Positions 3,684-31,634 of a stretch of 64,000 bases of DNA are shown here, piece after piece (position 1 is the first letter of the stretch; every line of letters starts with the position of its first letter). The stretch is from Hymenobacter sp. DG25A. Lineage in GTDB: Bacteria; Bacteroidota; Bacteroidia; Cytophagales; Hymenobacteraceae. Position numbers and translations under genes: made by a program. The stretch spans positions 2,170,001 to 2,234,000 of the forward strand of contig NZ_CP012623.1 in assembly GCF_001280305.1 (NCBI RefSeq), written 5' to 3'. The notes below the pieces were generated by a model. The model worked only from the letters and a program-made list of their open reading frames with translations. It was not told the DNA's origin and made no database searches.

Positions 3684-4448
3684 TTACTCACAAATAATTT
3701 GATCTTTGAATTCAACGTTGACGCGGTGGTACGTATCCCAGCCCAATACAGGGGGTATCTGACGGTAAAATACCATTAGTTTCGCAAATTTTTCCGAAAT
3801 ATTCTCGGGAAAGCCAAATTCTACACGCTGGTCGCCTACTTGCTGGGTAAACGATAGTTTGCCATTGGGCCCAATAAATACTTCGGCTACCTGGGCGCGC
3901 CAGAACGGATGCTCATCGATAAACCGGAGGAAGTCCAAATATCTATGACCAGTGGAATCCTGAAAAAATGCAGCTTGGAGGGGTTGGCCTCCCTGCCGGG
4001 CTATGGGCACCACGCGCGCCGTGAACAAGCCGGACAGCGGCAGGCGGCTGCCGGTATCATCAATGTAGCTATCCTGGCGGGTATCGGCGTGCACTAAACG
4101 GGCAATGGGGCGGTTCTGACGCACATCGGCGTGCAAATTTCCAGCCAGGTCTCGGTACACCTGGGCATCTTTTACGAAGCTGTGGGCTTTGAGACGCGCT
4201 TCCAGGCCCTTGAGGTTGAGGTCCTCGGGGCGGGCGCCTTCCAGGCGCTGGTTGCCGTTGCGCGTCAGTAGTGCTGTCACTTCCTGCTCGCTGATAAAAT
4301 AGTTATTGAACTCATTACCAATGGTAACTATGACATTGCTAACAGGACGCTGTGCCTGCCGCACACCGGCAAACACGGCCAGCGCTGTGAACAGCACCAG
4401 GCAACCCGTAGCGAAAAATAGGTTATTTACTTTACGCTTCAACTCCAT
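3684..4448 (-). CDS. ftsQ: Cell division protein FtsQ
   Basis: Bitopic divisome protein that links early and late division proteins (with FtsB/FtsL-type partners). The 254-residue product has a short basic cytoplasmic start (MELKRKVNN), one membrane helix (LFFATGCLVLFTALAVFAGV, about 10-29), then a POTRA-like region (VIVTIGNEFNNYFISEQEV, followed by the L-x-G-L-E type helix) and a periplasmic beta domain. The sequence is divergent, as is usual for FtsQ in Bacteroidota, but position between murC and ftsA settles the identity. Its start overlaps the murC end by 17 bp, indicating translational coupling. No ddl gene lies between murC and ftsQ. Confidence 0.92.
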   Translation of the reverse strand: MELKRKVNNLFFATGCLVLFTALAVFAGVRQAQRPVSNVIVTIGNEFNNYFISEQEVTALLTRNGNQRLEGARPEDLNLKGLEARLKAHSFVKDAQVYRDLAGNLHADVRQNRPIARLVHADTRQDSYIDDTGSRLPLSGLFTARVVPIARQGGQPLQAAFFQDSTGHRYLDFLRFIDEHPFWRAQVAEVFIGPNGKLSFTQQVGDQRVEFGFPENISEKFAKLMVFYRQIPPVLGWDTYHRVNVEFKDQIICE

Positions 4449-24502: not shown

Positions 24503-25243
24503 TCAGCCATTTGCTTCTTTAGCCTGCCATAAACGCCACCACGGCAGATAGGGCTGATCGTGGTGCTCATAATGGTATCCGAAAAAATAGCAACTTATAA
24601 AGGCCCACAGGTGCTGGCGCAGCTGGCTCCGAGACTTATGCGGGTTGGAAGCGGCATGCTCGCCCCGGTGCGGCAGATAGGTACCAAAGTAAAACAGCTG
24701 TACGGTGGCCAGGATGGCGGGCACCATCCAGAAGACAATAACATTAGCCATCGGGAAAAACAGCTTCAGCACGTTATAGGTGGCTGCCATCAGCAATACC
24801 TGCCCTATTGTAACGTAGTTCCAGGCAAAGCGCCCAAACCACCAGAGGAAGCCGGGGTGGCGTCCGTCGTGGAAATCGGGGTCATCGGGGGTGGCCACGT
24901 GCCGGTGATGGGCATGGTGCTTGGGCAGCATGCCGGGAAACCAGTTGAAGGCGAATAGCCCGGCCGTGAGCAGGCCAATAGCATTGTTCAGGCGCTTATT
25001 GGGGCTTACCACGCCGTGCATGGCATCGTGCGCGGTAATAAACAGGCCGGTGTAGAGGTGGGTTTGTACTAAAAGAAGCAGGTAAGGCGCCGGAGTTTGC
25101 CAGTTAGGCCGGTAAAAGGCCAGCAAATAGGCGAGCAGTAGCGCCCAGGCCGTCAGAATCAGTAGAGCCACGGCTACCCCTTTATAACCCAGTGGCGTGG
25201 GCTTTAAGCGAGGAGTAGAAACAGCGGCAGCAGACTGAGCCAT
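24503..25243 (-). CDS. crtW: Beta-carotene 4-ketolase CrtW
   Basis: Integral membrane di-iron oxygenase that puts keto groups at C4 of beta-ionone rings (echinenone, canthaxanthin, astaxanthin-type products). 246 residues with several membrane helices and the three histidine motifs HDAMHG (about 92), HHAHH (about 128) and HYEHHDQPY (near 225). FYFGTYLPHRGEHAA is a CrtW signature that separates it from fatty-acid desaturases. It is the last gene of the carotenoid cluster, 28 bp after ispH. Confidence 0.92.
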   Translation of the reverse strand: MAQSAAAVSTPRLKPTPLGYKGVAVALLILTAWALLLAYLLAFYRPNWQTPAPYLLLLVQTHLYTGLFITAHDAMHGVVSPNKRLNNAIGLLTAGLFAFNWFPGMLPKHHAHHRHVATPDDPDFHDGRHPGFLWWFGRFAWNYVTIGQVLLMAATYNVLKLFFPMANVIVFWMVPAILATVQLFYFGTYLPHRGEHAASNPHKSRSQLRQHLWAFISCYFFGYHYEHHDQPYLPWWRLWQAKEANG

Positions 25244-25271: not shown

Positions 25272-26120
25272 CTACAGCGCCAACAGGGCGTCGCGCACTT
25301 GCTCCATCAGCCACATGGGCGTGCTGGTAGCCCCGCAAATCCCCACCGACTGGCCGGGCTCAAACCACTCCGCCCGCAACTCGGCTACATTCGAAATAAA
25401 GTGCGTGGCCGGATTCGTTTCCTTACACACGTGATACAGCACCTTGCCGTTGGAGCTTTTGGTGCCCGATACAAAGACAATCTGATCAAACTGGGCCGCA
25501 AACTTACGCAGGTCTTTGTCGCGGTTGCTTACCTGGCGGCAAATGGTGTCGTTGGCATTCACCTGGTAGCCGCGCTGCTCCAGCTCGTTCTTGATGCGGT
25601 AGAAGGAATCGGTGCTTTTGGTGGTCTGGCTGTAGAGCGTGATGTTGGCCGGCAGTTCATGCCGGAGCAACTCTTCCAAGTTTTCGAACACCACCGCGTC
25701 GCCGCTCGTCTGGCCCAATAGGCCGCGCACCTCGGCGTGGCCGTGCTTGCCGTAGATGAAAATCGGCTCCTTCCGGTCGTAGCTGGTTTTAATGCGGTTC
25801 TGCAGTTTCAGCACCACCGGGCAGGAGGCATCAACCAGCGTGAGGTTGTTTTCCATGGCCATCTGGTAGGTACTGGGCGGCTCGCCGTGGGCCCGAATGA
25901 GCACGGCTTCGTCGCGCAGAGCAGCCAGCTGCTCATAGTCGATAATGCGCAGGCCGCGCAGTTTCAGGCGCTCTACCTCCTCGTCGTTGTGCACAATGTC
26001 ACCCAGACAATACAGGTAGCCCTGTTCTTCCAGCAGATCTTCGGCCATCTGTATGGCATAGATCACGCCGAAGCAAAAACCAGAATTGGGGTCAATACGG
26101 ACGCTCAGGTGGTAGGGCAT
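25272..26120 (-). CDS. ispH: 4-hydroxy-3-methylbut-2-enyl diphosphate reductase IspH
   Basis: Last step of the MEP pathway: Fe-S enzyme giving IPP and DMAPP, the isoprenoid units for carotenoids. Start ATG 26120 (MPYHLSVRIDPNSGFCFGV); an earlier ATG at 26171 adds a non-family extension. The three cluster cysteines are seen in NSGFCFGV, DASCPVV and DTICRQVSNRD; HGEPPS and SGTKSSNGKVL also match. 282 residues, the short form usual in Bacteroidota. Placement in a carotenoid cluster suggests co-supply of precursor. A hairpin at 26224 lies just upstream. Confidence 0.95.
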   Translation of the reverse strand: MPYHLSVRIDPNSGFCFGVIYAIQMAEDLLEEQGYLYCLGDIVHNDEEVERLKLRGLRIIDYEQLAALRDEAVLIRAHGEPPSTYQMAMENNLTLVDASCPVVLKLQNRIKTSYDRKEPIFIYGKHGHAEVRGLLGQTSGDAVVFENLEELLRHELPANITLYSQTTKSTDSFYRIKNELEQRGYQVNANDTICRQVSNRDKDLRKFAAQFDQIVFVSGTKSSNGKVLYHVCKETNPATHFISNVAELRAEWFEPGQSVGICGATSTPMWLMEQVRDALLAL

Positions 26121-26223
26121 AGCTATCAGCGTAACCAACTCTACGGGTAGAAGGTTATGACCGGATTTCACTTAAGATACAGAATTTTGGCAGCTTCTGC
26201 CACTGACCCTTCCGGCTGAGTCT

Positions 26224-26293: not shown

Positions 26294-26821
26294 CTACAGG
26301 CGCGCCAGCTTCGCGGCATCGGCCTCCGAAACGTGCCCCCGGTCCAGCAGAAAGCTGCGAACCAGGGCAAAAGAATCGGCATCGAGGCCGGAAGCGGGGT
26401 GCTTCAGCAGCGTGGAAACCAGAAACTGACGGTCTTCGTCTACGTGCTGACTGAGGCCCAGAAAGGCAGGCAGATTACTTTCCACGCTCAGGCGCAGAAA
26501 GCGGATTTCGGCGTTATCAGTATCCAGCTTCACGGCTTTCTCAAACTGCTGGCTGGCATTCTGCACGTAGGTGAGCTTGTTAAACATAGAAGCATCACGG
26601 GCCCGAATGGCTTCGGCGGCGGCTTTGTAGGCCAGAACCACGGCATCCTGCTGGTTGTAGGCAGCCATCAGCTGGTGAAACTTCTCGCCGGCTTCTTTGC
26701 TGGCGGCGGCCTGCTGGTACTGGCGGCGCAGGGAAACTACGGAATACGGGTTGGCTTCAGTTGACACGATGGTGGCGAGAGTCAGAAGGAGAGTGAGAAA
26801 GATGCGGGAGAGCCGGTTCAT
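26294..26821 (-). CDS. Unknown exported protein in the carotenoid cluster
   Basis: 175 residues with a signal peptide (MNRLSRIFLTLLLTLATIVS, cleavage near TEA). The mature part is helical and TPR-like: YNQQDAVVLAYKAAAEAIRA, then FEKAVKLDTDNAEIRFLRLS, then ESNLPAFLGLSQHVDEDRQF. From memory, proteins with the NAEIRFLRLS...PAFLG pattern sit next to crtB in several Bacteroidota, but this was not checked. It begins 18 bp after the crtB stop, so it is surely cotranscribed. No enzyme motif is seen and it does not resemble any lycopene cyclase. Function unknown; a periplasmic scaffold or pigment-related role is only a guess. Confidence 0.75.
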   Translation of the reverse strand: MNRLSRIFLTLLLTLATIVSTEANPYSVVSLRRQYQQAAASKEAGEKFHQLMAAYNQQDAVVLAYKAAAEAIRARDASMFNKLTYVQNASQQFEKAVKLDTDNAEIRFLRLSVESNLPAFLGLSQHVDEDRQFLVSTLLKHPASGLDADSFALVRSFLLDRGHVSEADAAKLARL

Positions 26822-26839: not shown

Positions 26840-27682
26840 CTAAATGGCCCGAAGGCGGTAGCGAAAGTACGAACCCAGCAGCAAAAGGAGCTTTGTGTTA
26901 TCGGGAACCCGCACCCGCTGGCCCAGAATGCCGGCCGCCGGCAGCTGCCGGATGCGGTGAAAAAGCTTCAGATAGTACACATACGCCAGGTATACGCCCA
27001 GGCGGGCGGCGCGGGGCAGCTGCACAATGCCCGCGTAGCCGGCCTCAAAATCGGCCCGGATGTCATCCTCAATTTCGCGCTTCACTTCGTCGGTAAATCG
27101 CTCAAACTGCACGCCCGGGAAGTACACCCGGCCCCGCTCCTCATAGTCGGAGCGGATATCCCGCAGGAAGTTGATTTTCTGGAAGGCGGAGCCCAGGCGC
27201 CGGGCGGGCTCGCGCAGGCGGTCAAACATGGCCGTATCTCCCTCGCAGAAAATTCGCAGACACATAAGTCCCACTACTTCTGCCGAGCCATAGATGTACT
27301 GCTCATACAGGCTCTGGTTGTAGTTGCGGTCATCCAGGTCCATTTCCATGCTGAACAGAAAGGCATCGATAAACTCCCGGTCAATACCATACTGGTGCAC
27401 TACGTCCTGAAAGGCGTGCAGCACCGGGTTCAGGCTCAGGCCCAGGTCCAGCGCTTCGTAGGTCTGGCGCTTGAAATCCGCGAACAGCGCCGCCTTATCA
27501 TAAGTATGAAAGGTGTCGACGATTTCATCGGCCCAGCGCACAAAGCCATACACGGAGTACACCGGCAGATGAAACCGTTTGTCCAGGGTGCGGATACCCA
27601 GCGTGAAGGAGGTGCTGTAGCGCTTGGTAATGAGCTTGCTGCAGGCCCGGCTGGTTTCAGTAAAAAGGGCAACGTGGTCCAT
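26840..27682 (-). CDS. crtB: Phytoene synthase CrtB
   Basis: Condenses two geranylgeranyl diphosphates to phytoene, the first committed step to carotenoids. 280 residues of the squalene/phytoene synthase family. First aspartate-rich motif is RWADEIVD (Asp52, Asp56); the second is FLRDIRSDYEERGRVYFP. YGSAEVVGLMC matches the family's middle motif. The gene lies 9 bp after crtI and 18 bp before the unknown exported protein. Confidence 0.95.
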   Translation of the reverse strand: MDHVALFTETSRACSKLITKRYSTSFTLGIRTLDKRFHLPVYSVYGFVRWADEIVDTFHTYDKAALFADFKRQTYEALDLGLSLNPVLHAFQDVVHQYGIDREFIDAFLFSMEMDLDDRNYNQSLYEQYIYGSAEVVGLMCLRIFCEGDTAMFDRLREPARRLGSAFQKINFLRDIRSDYEERGRVYFPGVQFERFTDEVKREIEDDIRADFEAGYAGIVQLPRAARLGVYLAYVYYLKLFHRIRQLPAAGILGQRVRVPDNTKLLLLLGSYFRYRLRAI

Positions 27683-27691
27683 TTCTGCTAA

Positions 27692-29164
27692 TTATGAATT
27701 CTCCTTTTCTACTTCTTTGGCCACTACCTGCCCGGAAATGAGCGAGGGCGGCACGCCAGGGCCCGGCACCGTGAGTTGCCCCGTAAAATACAGGTTGCTC
27801 ACTTTTTTGCTTTTGATGGAGGGCTTGAGAATGGCCGTTTGGCGCAGGGTATTGGCCAGGCCATAGGCATTGCCTTTGTAGCTGTGGTAGTCCTGCTCAA
27901 AATCCTGGTGGGCGTAGCTGCGCTTATACACCACGGCATCCCGAATGCTGGTGCCGCAGTGGCGCTCCAGCCGATCCATAATCAGGTGATAGTAGTGCTC
28001 CCGGGTTTCCTCGGGGTCAGCTAAGTTCGGGGCCACCGGAATCAGCAAAAACAGGTTCTCGCAGCCTTCAGGGGCCACAGAAGGGTCCGTTTGGGACGGC
28101 GCCGACACATAGAACAGTGGCTTGGTGGGCCATTGGGGTTCCTCATAGATTTCCTGGGCGTGCAGGCTGAAATCTTCGTCGAAGAACAGATTATGGTGGC
28201 GCAATTTGGGCAGGCGCTTATTCACGCCCAGGTAAAACAGCAGCGAGGATGGGGCCATGGTGCGCTTGTCCCAGTAAGCTTCGTCGTAGTTACGCCACTC
28301 CGGGGCCAGCAGGTGCTGCTCGGCGTGGTGATAGTCGGCGCCGGCCACAATGACATCGGCGGCGCGGAAGCCGGTGGCTGTTTGCACACCGGTGGCGCGG
28401 CCCTTTTCCACCACTATCTGCTGCACGGGGGCATTATACTCTAAGGTTACGCCCTGCTCCCGGGCCAGCTGCACCATGCCTTCCACTATTTTGTGCATGC
28501 CCCCCATGGGGTACCAGGTGCCCAAGGCTAGGTCGGCGTAGTTCATCAGCGAGTACAGGGCCGGGGTGTTCTGGGAGGTGGCGCCCAGGAAGAGAATGGG
28601 AAATTCCACCAGCTCCAGCAGGCGCGGGTCTTTAAAGAACTTGCGCACGTGCTTATGCATGCTTTGCAGCAAATCCAGACGCACAGCATCTACCAGCAGG
28701 CGCGGGTCGGCAAACTCCATGAGCGAGCGGCCGGGCATATGCACAAATTTGCTGATGCCCACCTCATACTTATAGGCAGCCTGCCGCAGGAACTCATCCA
28801 GGCGGGCGGCGCTGCCGGGCTCGTAGCTTTCAAACAAGTCCCGCAGCTCACTCATCCGGGCCGGAATATCCACGGCTTCCTGCCCTTTAAAAATTACCTG
28901 GTAGGAAGGATCCAGTCGGCGCAGGTCATAATAATCGGAGACTTTCTTTCCAAAGCGGGCAAAATACTGCTCAAACACATCCGGCATCCAGTACCAGCTC
29001 GGGCCCATATCAAAGGTGAAGCCTTCGGCCCGGAATACCCGCGCCCGCCCACCCGGCCCCTCGTTCTTTTCCAGAATATGCACGCGGTAGCCGCGCTGAG
29101 CCAGCGAGGTAGCTGCCGACAGGCCCGCAAAGCCAGCCCCAATTACAATGACGTCCTTTATCAC
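27692..29164 (-). CDS. crtI: Phytoene desaturase CrtI
   Basis: FAD-dependent desaturase turning phytoene into lycopene. Rossmann start VIVIGAGFAGLSAATSLA, then EKNEGPGGRARV, both typical of CrtI. The C-terminus has LYFTGQLTVPGPGVPPSLIS, matching the family's bacterial-type carotenoid dehydrogenase signature. 490 residues is a normal length. A 289-bp gap separates it from the sigma-factor gene upstream, containing a terminator, so crtI likely has its own promoter near 29200-29350; no TAnnTTTG is found there. Confidence 0.95.
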   Translation of the reverse strand: MIKDVIVIGAGFAGLSAATSLAQRGYRVHILEKNEGPGGRARVFRAEGFTFDMGPSWYWMPDVFEQYFARFGKKVSDYYDLRRLDPSYQVIFKGQEAVDIPARMSELRDLFESYEPGSAARLDEFLRQAAYKYEVGISKFVHMPGRSLMEFADPRLLVDAVRLDLLQSMHKHVRKFFKDPRLLELVEFPILFLGATSQNTPALYSLMNYADLALGTWYPMGGMHKIVEGMVQLAREQGVTLEYNAPVQQIVVEKGRATGVQTATGFRAADVIVAGADYHHAEQHLLAPEWRNYDEAYWDKRTMAPSSLLFYLGVNKRLPKLRHHNLFFDEDFSLHAQEIYEEPQWPTKPLFYVSAPSQTDPSVAPEGCENLFLLIPVAPNLADPEETREHYYHLIMDRLERHCGTSIRDAVVYKRSYAHQDFEQDYHSYKGNAYGLANTLRQTAILKPSIKSKKVSNLYFTGQLTVPGPGVPPSLISGQVVAKEVEKENS

Positions 29165-29363: not shown

Positions 29364-29417
29364 CAAAAAACCGGGCCGCGAGCAACGCAGCTTGTGGCTA
29401 ACGTCACCCGCGGCCCG
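29364..29417 (-). terminator. Terminator after the ECF sigma gene
   Basis: Minus-strand stem CGGGCCGCG with CGCGGCCCG (29372-29380 with 29409-29417, 9 bp) followed by G and six T. It ends 36 nt past the sigma-factor stop. This separates regulator transcripts from crtI. Confidence 0.7.
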
Positions 29418-29453: not shown

Positions 29454-29969
29454 CTACACGCCGGGGGCGTATACCTTCAATACGTCTTTTAGCTCTTTTC
29501 GGGCAATGTGAATCCGATTTTTTACGGTCCCGATTGGAATTTGCAGTTTCTCAGCTATTTCCAGGTATTTATAGCCGATGTAGTACATCATAAACGGCGT
29601 CCGGTAGTCGGCTGAAAGGCCGGCAATGGCTTCGTTTATGTCGGTTACCACAAAGTCGCTGGTGGCGCCGTTGTGGGTAATGTAGTTTTCATCGGTATTG
29701 AAGTACTGGAAGTAGTCAGTACTATCAATGTTACTGTTGCGCTTCGTTATCTTATTGTAGTTGTTGATAAACGTGTTGCGCATGATGGTGTACAACCATG
29801 CCTTCAGGTTGGTGCCCGCCTTGAACTTGTCCTTGTTCAGCAGTGCCTTCAGCAGGGTTTCCTGTACCAAATCCTTGGCATCGTCAGCGTCGCGGGTCAG
29901 GTTCATCGCCACGGGCTTCAAAGAGTAGGAAATCTTTTGTACTTGGTCGGTAAATTCCAGAGATGTCAT
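29454..29969 (-). CDS. ECF-type RNA polymerase sigma factor
   Basis: 171 residues. Sigma region 2: DADDAKDLVQETLLKALLN followed by the -10 recognition helix (LKAWLYTIMRNTFINNY). Region 4: RTPFMMYYIGYKYLEIAEKL, then PIGTVKNRIHIARKEL. No anti-sigma gene or membrane partner is next to it. The family member close to crtI is widespread in Bacteroidota, and its position between the MerR-B12 regulator and crtI is like the light-response pair of sigma factor plus LitR known in actinobacteria. It probably directs the crt promoter(s), though this one is also similar to general RpoE-type sigma factors of the phylum. Confidence 0.92.
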   Translation of the reverse strand: MTSLEFTDQVQKISYSLKPVAMNLTRDADDAKDLVQETLLKALLNKDKFKAGTNLKAWLYTIMRNTFINNYNKITKRNSNIDSTDYFQYFNTDENYITHNGATSDFVVTDINEAIAGLSADYRTPFMMYYIGYKYLEIAEKLQIPIGTVKNRIHIARKELKDVLKVYAPGV

Positions 29970-30000
29970 CTTGTTTAGCTTTCCGTGGCAAAATGTTAAA

Positions 30001-30008
30001 CAAATATA
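30001..30008 (-). promoter_or_regulatory. -7 element of the ECF sigma gene
   Basis: TATATTTG on the minus strand matches TAnnTTTG, 31 nt before the ATG at 29969. No TTG lies 19-21 bp further up, so this is a -7 element only. The region 30009-30222 also holds an 11-bp palindrome TGACTCAGTCA (30077-30087) of unknown meaning. Confidence 0.5.
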
Positions 30009-30222: not shown

Positions 30223-31134
30223 TCAGGAAGCCACCAGTTCCTGCGGGCAGGTGCACAAACGCCCGGCCAGGGTCAGGAAGTCCGTCATGAGGCGCACCCG
30301 GACGGTATTGGGCGGCAGGCGCAGGTTTTCCTGTTGGGCCAGCGGGCCATAGATATAGAGCATCACCTCGGGGCAAAGGGTATGGATCTGCTCCACGTAG
30401 CCCTGCACCTGGTCGCGCTCCGGCAGGGCCGTCATTACGGTGCACAGCGCGTGCGGCTTATAAGTCTCGCACACGGACTTCAACTCCTTTACCGGCAGGT
30501 TCTGGCCCAGGTATAGGACATGCTGCCCCCGAAAACGCAGGGCATAGTTCATAAACAGCAACGCCAGCTCGTGCATTTCACCTTCCGGCAGAAACAGGAC
30601 CCAGCGCCGGGCCTGCGCCGGCTGCACGGGCGGCAGGCTGTCGATAGCCACTATCATTTTCTGCCGCAACATATTGGTAACCAAATGCTCCTGGGCCGGA
30701 TTAACGGAGCCGGCGTGCCAGAGCACCCCAATGCGCTGCAGAAACGGATACACCACCTGCAGAATGGCTTCTTCGAAACCCAGTTGCTTGACAGCAGTAT
30801 CCAGCAGGTTGCACAAACGGCGCTCATCCATTTCCAGCATGGCCGCCAGCAAAGAATTTACCTGCTGGCAGTAGTCATGGGCGTCATCGTAGCTGGAAAT
30901 AACGGCCTGACTCAGTTCCTCCGGCTTAAGCTGGGCCACGCGCGAGATGCGGTAGCCGCGGGAACAGAGCGTGGCCACGTTCAGCAGGCGGCGCAGGTCT
31001 TCGTCGCAATACGTGCGGATGTTGGTAGCCGTGCGCACTGGCTGCAGAATGCCGTAGCGCTGCTCCCACATCCGAATGGTATGCGCCTTAATGCCGGAAA
31101 GCTGTTCCAGGTCGCTGATTGAAAACTGTCCCAC
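30223..31134 (-). CDS. MerR-type regulator with B12-binding domain (CarH/LitR-like)
   Basis: 303 residues. MerR helix-turn-helix (ISDLEQLSGIKAHTIRMWEQ) at 5-45; a helical cap domain with the trio Trp139 (VLWH), Glu149 and His150 (NPAQEHLVTNML); and a cobalamin fold with His188 in EGEMHELALLF and YLGQNLP. Trp-x9-Glu-His spacing is exactly that of Thermus CarH (W131, E141, H142), where it caps adenosylcobalamin, and His188 matches the cobalt-binding His. In the last motif Gly is Ala. A light-sensitive repressor of carotenoid genes is the likely role. The start is GTG 31134, overlapping the crtZ stop by 1 nt (TAGTG), so it is coupled to crtZ. Confidence 0.9.
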   Translation of the reverse strand: MGQFSISDLEQLSGIKAHTIRMWEQRYGILQPVRTATNIRTYCDEDLRRLLNVATLCSRGYRISRVAQLKPEELSQAVISSYDDAHDYCQQVNSLLAAMLEMDERRLCNLLDTAVKQLGFEEAILQVVYPFLQRIGVLWHAGSVNPAQEHLVTNMLRQKMIVAIDSLPPVQPAQARRWVLFLPEGEMHELALLFMNYALRFRGQHVLYLGQNLPVKELKSVCETYKPHALCTVMTALPERDQVQGYVEQIHTLCPEVMLYIYGPLAQQENLRLPPNTVRVRLMTDFLTLAGRLCTCPQELVAS

Positions 31135-31634
31135 TAGTGTATTCTTTCTTTATGAGTAGTACGCGCTGGCGTTTGGGTAGTCCGGCGCCAGGCCATAGCA
31201 TAGTATTTAGGCGATACCCATAACATGCCAAACTCCTCGGAGCCAAGGCGGCCGGTAGCTTTATGATGCATCTTGTGGGCCATATTCAAGGCTCTCAGAT
31301 AGGTGTTGCGCGACTTACGCCAGAAGCGCATGCGTCCGTGAATCAGCACATCGTGCACAAAGAAGTACACTGTTCCATAGGCGGCAATGCCGGTGCCTAC
31401 CCAAAAGCGCCAGTCTTTGGCTGGCGAGCCATAGACAATGAACAGCATCGAGAGCAAGCCATAAAACAGGAAAAAGAAGTCGTTGCGCTCCAGGCGGTGC
31501 GGATGGCGTACGTGATGCGAGCGGTGCAAAAACCACAACGGCCCGTGCAGCACATATTTGTGCATGCCCCAGGCCACAAACTCCATTCCCAGAAAAGTAG
31601 CGGTGGTAACGGCTACGGCTGCCAGCGTTGTCAT
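31134..31634 (-). CDS. crtZ: Beta-carotene hydroxylase CrtZ
   Basis: Membrane di-iron hydroxylase adding OH at C3 of beta rings (zeaxanthin, or with CrtW astaxanthin-type products). 166 residues with four predicted helices. Histidine motifs: HKYVLHG (near 25), HRSHHVRH (37-44), HDVLIHGRM (about 94) and HKMHHKA (about 120). Promoter not obvious: no TAnnTTTG within 150 bp. It is the first gene of the carotenoid run and overlaps the regulator start by 1 nt. Confidence 0.92.
   Translation of the reverse strand: MTTLAAVAVTTATFLGMEFVAWGMHKYVLHGPLWFLHRSHHVRHPHRLERNDFFFLFYGLLSMLFIVYGSPAKDWRFWVGTGIAAYGTVYFFVHDVLIHGRMRFWRKSRNTYLRALNMAHKMHHKATGRLGSEEFGMLWVSPKYYAMAWRRTTQTPARTTHKERIH

Follow-up and report, generated by a model that had tools for sequence, protein, structure and literature searches.

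In Streptomyces, as Takano is said to have described in 2005, the gene for the regulator LitR adjoins that for an extracytoplasmic function (ECF) sigma factor, LitS, in a carotenoid cluster. CarH, the class I LitR of Thermus thermophilus and Myxococcus, combines a MerR winged helix, a four-helix bundle and a Rossmann-type B12 fold, with a Wx9EH motif and an axial cobalt ligand in ExH, and is encoded beside carotenoid (crt) genes. The stretch considered here, 64,000 nt of the Hymenobacter sp. DG25A genome (the window), holds a regulator gene with features of both: it lies beside an ECF sigma gene in a crt cluster, and its product shares the CarH architecture. We propose, from sequence comparison, that it encodes a CarH-like repressor, dependent on adenosylcobalamin (AdoCbl) and inactivated by light, of a Bacteroidota-wide branch with its own operator at crt and rhodopsin genes, and put the probability of this at about 0.7; its working mode is, by analogy, most likely that of CarH. 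The evidence consists of residues, a predicted fold, a palindrome and its distribution, the genes behind this palindrome, and a B12 adenosyltransferase gene.

The regulator gene and its critical codons are:

30223..31134, minus strand: CarH-like regulator, 303 amino acids, GTG start (open reading frame, Pfam and NCBIfam scans, predicted fold); by approximate residues, MerR winged helix 1-66, four-helix bundle 88-165, Rossmann domain 177-295
30718..30720, minus strand: codon of Trp139, part of GxxW (W131 of T. thermophilus CarH, TtCarH, by alignment)
30685..30690, minus strand: codons of Glu149-His150 (TtCarH E141-H142, by alignment)
30571..30573, minus strand: codon of His188 (TtCarH H177, the lower axial cobalt ligand, by alignment)

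The frame reads from 31134 to 30223, and stops interrupt the plus-strand frame. All three CarH domains are present: Pfam matches MerR_1 and B12-binding_2, while the Rossmann part is recognized by predicted fold, not by Pfam. The best solved relative is TtCarH (81 bits, ~23-28% identity), and the closest named homologue, among the matches listed, is that of Hymenobacter sp. DG25B (91% identical). The predicted fold also closely matches CtMerR of Chloracidobacterium (8JBS) and the photocobilins; CtMerR has a divergent DNA-binding domain, and the biliverdin domain of the photocobilins is absent here.

A preliminary description, made from the letters of the window, had noted that the spacings of Trp139, Glu149, His150 and His188 match those of the AdoCbl-capping residues of Thermus CarH. 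Alignment bears this out, with TtCarH W131, E141, H142 and H177 as counterparts; Wx9EH is intact, and the axial histidine stands in a D/ExH motif (E186, H188). Passages of PMC11796333 give the signature of light-responsive cobalamin-binding domains (SignatureFinder) as GxxW, EH, GxxH and GxxxP, with the cap residues as the mark of light-responsive domains; CtMerR and the photocobilins share this signature. All four elements are present in the regulator, and the full set in 76 of 171 homologues. One residue of the pocket is unusual: His140 is equivalent to TtCarH His132, which forms the bis-His light state (according to a passage of PMC11796333), and is found in only 3 of 172 sequences, window protein included; the photoproduct may therefore differ between relatives.

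Among the 171 locus homologues (TtCarH itself, L114, and L117 being left out of all homologue counts, and L115 and L116 also of the DNA-binding count), His188 is present in 156 and the whole quartet in 153. Conservation is tightest next to crt genes, where Trp139, Glu149 and His188 occur in 113 of 113 homologues and His150 in 110. At least one quartet residue is missing from 15 of the 58 homologues not linked to crt (no crt gene within ~7 kb of fetched DNA, some contigs being short), and all 15 lack His188, although this contrast ignores descent. An alignment of 69 hand-picked rows, in which the window protein is joined by 15 database homologues (from a list of 120) and 53 locus homologues (from the 171), has as its only invariant columns W23, R40, Y42, G136, W139, E149, H150 and H188; by chance it includes none of the crt-linked homologues without His150 (L120, L126, L135). 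A second alignment consists of the same rows plus TtCarH.

Homologues that lie away from crt and have lost the cobalt-ligand histidine, some of them also the Trp or the histidine of EH, include L067, L074, L076, L077, L079, L082, L150, L152, L154, L155, L160, L172 and L198. Their DNA-binding residues are nearly invariant. The genomes of five (L150, L152, L154, L160, L172) also hold an intact copy, a situation like that of CarA beside CarH in Myxococcus.

The candidate operator lies between the regulator and the sigma gene:

29972..30002: predicted operator TGTTTA-N19-TAAACA, flanked by the -7 element and the start codon of the ECF gene
30001..30008, minus strand: TATATTTG, a -7 element of the type TAnnTTTG, which we take to be the Bacteroidota consensus; it overlaps the first half-site by two bases

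Across 48 sequences of the genus, window included, the gap between the two genes varies along most of its length; the exception is its last 50 bases, which contain TATATTTG, the inverted repeat TGTTTA...TAAACA and the ATG. Other families, too, have this repeat between the regulator and the ECF gene, and in many loci without an ECF gene it lies between regulator and crtI. When spacers of 10-26 were allowed, all 88 exact sites 3′ of a regulator had a spacer of 18 (32 sites) or 19 (56 sites). With up to one mismatch, a site accompanies the regulator in 45 of 47 Hymenobacter loci (0.20 expected from shuffles) and 58 of 63 other crt-linked loci (1.15); among unlinked homologues the figures are 13 of 34 with the quartet (0.80) and 2 of 14 without it (0.25). 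Base composition is an unlikely cause of the palindrome, judging by dinucleotide shuffles, by alternative spacings and by a reversed-pattern control.

H18 and T19 are almost invariant in the regulator branch; a group with a different DNA-binding wing (NRR for NIR; loci L163-175, cut by number and including L172, which is not of that kind) has no exact site in 13 loci and one with up to one mismatch (shuffles 0.30). The half-sites fit the TnnACA pattern that passages of PMC9304148 give for CarH operators, but as an inverted repeat with 18 or 19 bp between half-sites, where CarH has 11-bp direct repeats; the wing sequence differs as well (TNIR here, GGHR in CarH).

The source genome contains the pattern, at spacers of 14-22, four times, and the reversed control not at all. 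The single spacer-22 site sits in a long open reading frame and is probably due to chance; the three spacer-19 sites precede the ECF gene, a fasciclin gene and a rhodopsin gene. At the fasciclin gene the layout is that of the ECF promoter. The rhodopsin gene (PF01036) has its site 60 bp before the ATG and is followed by a beta-carotene dioxygenase gene (blh, PF15461). The rhodopsin carries RYIDWTLTVPLMVVEFYLL, which by its motif positions fits a DTE-type proton pump; pumps of this type are treated in passages of PMC4732338. Control of a rhodopsin, here predicted, is a departure from CarH. The likely regulon extends past the carotenoid genes named in the preliminary description and takes in the rhodopsin-blh pair and the fasciclin gene; the crt context itself stands.

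Site numbers were compared across the sampled relatives at genus, order and class level. Genomes with the regulator, 70 of them, hold 370 sites against 192 control sites (Wilcoxon p 1e-7), while 20 without it, outside family f4, hold 16 against 41. Within family f7, 37 genomes with the regulator have 280 sites (control 144), and three without it have 2 (control 10). In Hymenobacter, 61 genomes contribute 95 sites against 23 for the control, with at least one site in 56.

Rhodopsin genes occur in 61 of 395 sampled Bacteroidota genomes. In regulator-bearing genomes of this phylum sample, an exact site lies within 350 bp of 9 of 16 rhodopsin genes, and one with up to one mismatch by 12; of the remaining four, one has a site with two mismatches and three are of other rhodopsin types. 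In the genus sample the corresponding numbers are 5 and 9 of 38; all nine of these rhodopsins are of the TFFxGYMAM type, which has 14 members in total. None of 52 rhodopsins in genomes without the regulator has a site at either stringency, a contrast in which descent and regulator are inseparable because all of these genomes belong to other classes. Five other spacing pairs gave no exact site, and means of 1.6 of 16, 0.8 of 38 and 0.2 of 52 with up to one mismatch. Within the class of the window, the regulator is present in 15 of 15 rhodopsin-bearing genomes, compared with 70 of 98 overall (hypergeometric p 0.004). Some rhodopsin genes have an internal stop or are split or cut (G445 C2:40279-40869, G404 C1:367650-368260, G436 C151 and C128); the broken frames of G436 and G445 and the smaller piece of G404 were left unscored.

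The genes behind the palindrome, some of them Pfam-scanned and the rest named by eye, were read for 20 hand-picked stretches (18 of the 95 genus sites, plus two from families f3 and f2) and, in three f7 genomes picked for their high counts, for 15 of the 32 sites. Of the 20, six stand before a rhodopsin gene (L229, L231, L237, L240, L247, L248), four before a patatin-like gene, two each before a fasciclin gene and an OsmC/GH3-like pair, and one before an ECF gene; three have other genes behind them (L234, L235, L244) and two gave none (L232, L233). In the f7 set a fasciclin gene follows the site four times and a BLUF gene once; the rest have no plain link to light. Three genomes of Hymenobacter have a fasciclin gene behind the site, as do the four cases in the three f7 genomes; genes of the OsmC, BLUF, MsrA, peroxiredoxin and patatin-like kinds account for one to four cases each. 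Some arrangements recur: in four Hymenobacter genomes (L230, L239, L242, L243) a patatin-like phospholipase gene and a divergent gene for a small basic protein flank the palindrome, and in two genomes (L236, L245) an OsmC peroxidase gene and a GH3-like gene do. In L228 (genome G130) it is 87 bp before a gene for a blue-light sensor of the BLUF type.

Taken together with the CarH precedent, these observations suggest the following scheme. In the dark, the AdoCbl-loaded regulator would occupy TGTTTA-N18/19-TAAACA, a site that overlaps the ECF sigma gene's -7 element and start region or, where this gene is absent, lies before crtI; it would occupy the same site upstream of the rhodopsin-blh pair. 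Light would cleave the Co-C bond under the Trp139/Glu149/His150 cap, the regulator would leave the DNA, and the synthesis of carotenoids and of retinal would be turned on jointly with the rhodopsin pump. AdoCbl binding, photolysis, DNA binding by the regulator and dark repression are all predicted steps, as is the driving of crtI by the ECF sigma factor in Hymenobacter. A broader version, that a class-wide branch of B12 photoreceptors with a fixed operator runs rhodopsin phototrophy and carotenoid photoprotection as one light regulon, making light harvesting B12-dependent, seems to us evenly poised between true and false. In this version the altered nucleotide-tail pocket may mean that the corrinoid taken up has a different lower ligand, or that its tail is displaced.

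Several observations weigh against the proposed reading. The Rossmann B12 model PF02310 has no match in the regulator (Pfam at E 0.001), and the NCBIfam CarH equivalog NF052513 scores 117 bits against a cut-off of 400. The CarH B12 motif given in passages of PMC9304148, D/ExHx2G/P-SxT/V-GG, is incomplete, with Ala191 for Gly, TxM for SxT/V and GP for GG; for this reason the protein is filed as CarH-like rather than as CarH. By eye, no conserved element or shared ECF promoter was seen above crtI and crtZ in Hymenobacter, so that the sigma cascade is tentative, and the TAnnTTTG element was not seen at the source-genome rhodopsin site. To the low share of sites in the genus sample of rhodopsins, which includes 5 of the 14 TFFxGYMAM members without one, and the entanglement with descent noted above must be added three f3 loci (L178, L179, L181) where the regulator has no crt gene in range. 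Finally, eight f4 genomes without a detected regulator have 34 sites against 8 for the control, which means that another factor may use the site in that family. The site excess without a regulator was noted in the f4 genomes G099, G214, G261, G363, G379 and G080. Six of the eight were searched again directly at E 1e-5 with the regulator again not found; an empty answer proves little in such a search, but the same query does match elsewhere.

The first alternative is a repressor that acts on the same operator without binding B12, its signal coming from a partner such as a flavin photoreceptor, as for CarA or class II LitR, and its Rossmann domain being an oligomerization relic. The altered tail motif and the missing PF02310 match would fit, as would the homologues that retain the DNA-binding residues without His188. 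The class II proteins of Pseudomonas (PplR/PmlR) offer a precedent: they too have MerR and B12-binding_2 domains, an operator of paired half-sites and light-linked targets, and, in passages of PMC9758184, keep only the four-helix bundle, with PmlR2 driven through a LOV protein. The same passages describe them as without similarity to the B12 Rossmann domain, however, whereas the regulator has this fold and the axial histidine; CarA, of the same architecture, lacks the Trp of Wx9EH (by a passage of PMC9304148), and W139 is present here. A relic would hardly keep the quartet as the crt-linked homologues do, or all four light-signature elements, and we consider this alternative improbable.

Less probable again is that the protein binds an adenosyl-corrinoid but responds to the supply of corrinoid or B12 instead of light, so that pigment and rhodopsin would follow B12 status. 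It could do so with the same cofactor residues, and B12 supply is evidently sensed in this genome, where its one cobalamin riboswitch precedes a TonB-dependent receptor gene. The cap residues, though, are the mark of light-responsive domains, the targets have to do with light (rhodopsin, carotenoids, the synthesis of retinal and, in another genome, BLUF), and no B12 gene was seen at the three source-genome sites. That the palindrome belongs to another factor, such as the ECF sigma or an unrelated repressor, while the adjacent regulator acts elsewhere, would account for the f4 excess but is very unlikely, given that the palindrome persists without the ECF gene in f7, lies next to the regulator in 103 of the 110 crt-linked loci of Hymenobacter and other groups (up to one mismatch), and is nearly absent beside the other-wing group.

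The regulator itself was found in 85 of the 395 sampled genomes (E 1e-15 or better). PF01923, the B12 adenosyltransferase, is present in all 85 (compared by eye) and in 207 of the 310 others; no regulator-bearing genome of the sample lacks the PduO family, and the source genome has one PduO gene. At L213 (around 3964-4191, minus strand) a cobalamin riboswitch fronts a TonB-dependent receptor gene, probably for B12 import.

Related genes have been noticed before. Passages of PMC6974559 describe a MerR gene with a B12-binding domain beside crt genes in Muricauda and suggest photo-oxidative control; others place a MerR gene within the crt cluster, or ahead of it, in further Bacteroidota (PMC4732338, PMC11573002, PMC11855829), the passages of the first two assigning it no light or B12 role. 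The term MerR does not occur in the passages of PMC3587595 on rhodopsin expression and light-driven pumping in Dokdonia. Passages on rhodopsin-bearing Bacteroidota name no light sensor that switches on rhodopsin and carotenoid genes, and no paper on the operator, or linking the regulator or its site with rhodopsin, was found in the open-licence PMC literature. A candidate operator before both crt genes and rhodopsin pumps in several families suggests that light defence and light harvesting may switch on together. If so, rhodopsin phototrophy would be tied to vitamin B12, which many such bacteria may need to import. What is predicted, a sensor with its 31-bp site and three targets, lies within one culturable genus, so that a single protein and one deletion mutant would be enough for a test; the compact palindromic operator could also serve in a green-light switch for Bacteroidota.

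On the minus strand the cluster reads crtZ, regulator, ECF sigma, crtI, crtB, a 175-amino-acid protein, ispH and crtW:

31134..31634, minus strand: crtZ-like beta-carotene hydroxylase (His motifs; named from sequence and conserved place)
29454..29969, minus strand: ECF sigma factor, 171 amino acids (open reading frame and profile scans)
29375..29391, minus strand: terminator-like hairpin and T-run following the ECF gene (by consensus scan alone)
27692..29164, minus strand: crtI, phytoene desaturase (NCBIfam CrtID, above cut-off)
26840..27682, minus strand: crtB, phytoene synthase type (Pfam SQS_PSY)
26294..26821, minus strand: 175-amino-acid protein, function unassigned, conserved in the cluster
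25272..26171, minus strand: ispH, isoprenoid precursor enzyme (profile scans)
24503..25243, minus strand: crtW-like beta-carotene ketolase (best NCBIfam match CrtW, 240 bits, below the cut-off of 350)

The crtZ-like protein has no Pfam or NCBIfam match. As the preliminary description had stated, the regulator's GTG shares a single base, 31134, with the TAG stop of crtZ, and the ECF sigma gene and crtI follow on the same strand. It was right to place the regulator inside the cluster, and residues, fold and context agree with its CarH-like photosensor, short of the complete B12 motif; its wording of a fusion is loose, as there is no protein fusion and 253 nt, with the promoter element, precede the sigma gene. 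It likened the arrangement to LitR and an ECF sigma factor; Streptomyces belongs to another phylum, the ECF gene is optional in the Bacteroidota, and ECF dependence of crt is here only predicted. Hymenobacter-type loci have crtZ and the ECF gene around the regulator in 47 of 47, with crtI and crtB within reach in most; f2 loci with wide flanks at the main copy run regulator-ECF-crtI-crtB in 8 of 8, with crtZ in front in 4; f5 loci mostly have the same order with crtZ further on. In f7 most run regulator-crtI-crtB-crtZ with no ECF gene between, and many of them keep the palindrome, now before crtI; an essential role for the ECF sigma in the module was accordingly rejected.

In the f2 loci the ECF and crtI matches are just 20-50 bp apart in 7 of 8, and the two could share one transcript. 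In Hymenobacter the hairpin and gaps of up to 3 kb separate them, so crtI needs its own promoter, perhaps read by the ECF sigma. Terminator-like hairpins number 9 in the region, with 3.2 expected (consensus scan), and a sigma-70 scan of the cluster was uninformative (1 found, 2.1 expected). Within Hymenobacter the ECF sigma is 88-98% identical and the regulator 58-89%, which places the sigma under much stronger constraint. Outside the phylum, a plasmid of the betaproteobacterium Eleftheria terrae (L117) has a MerR/CarH-like gene beside a fasciclin gene, echoing the fasciclin target seen here.
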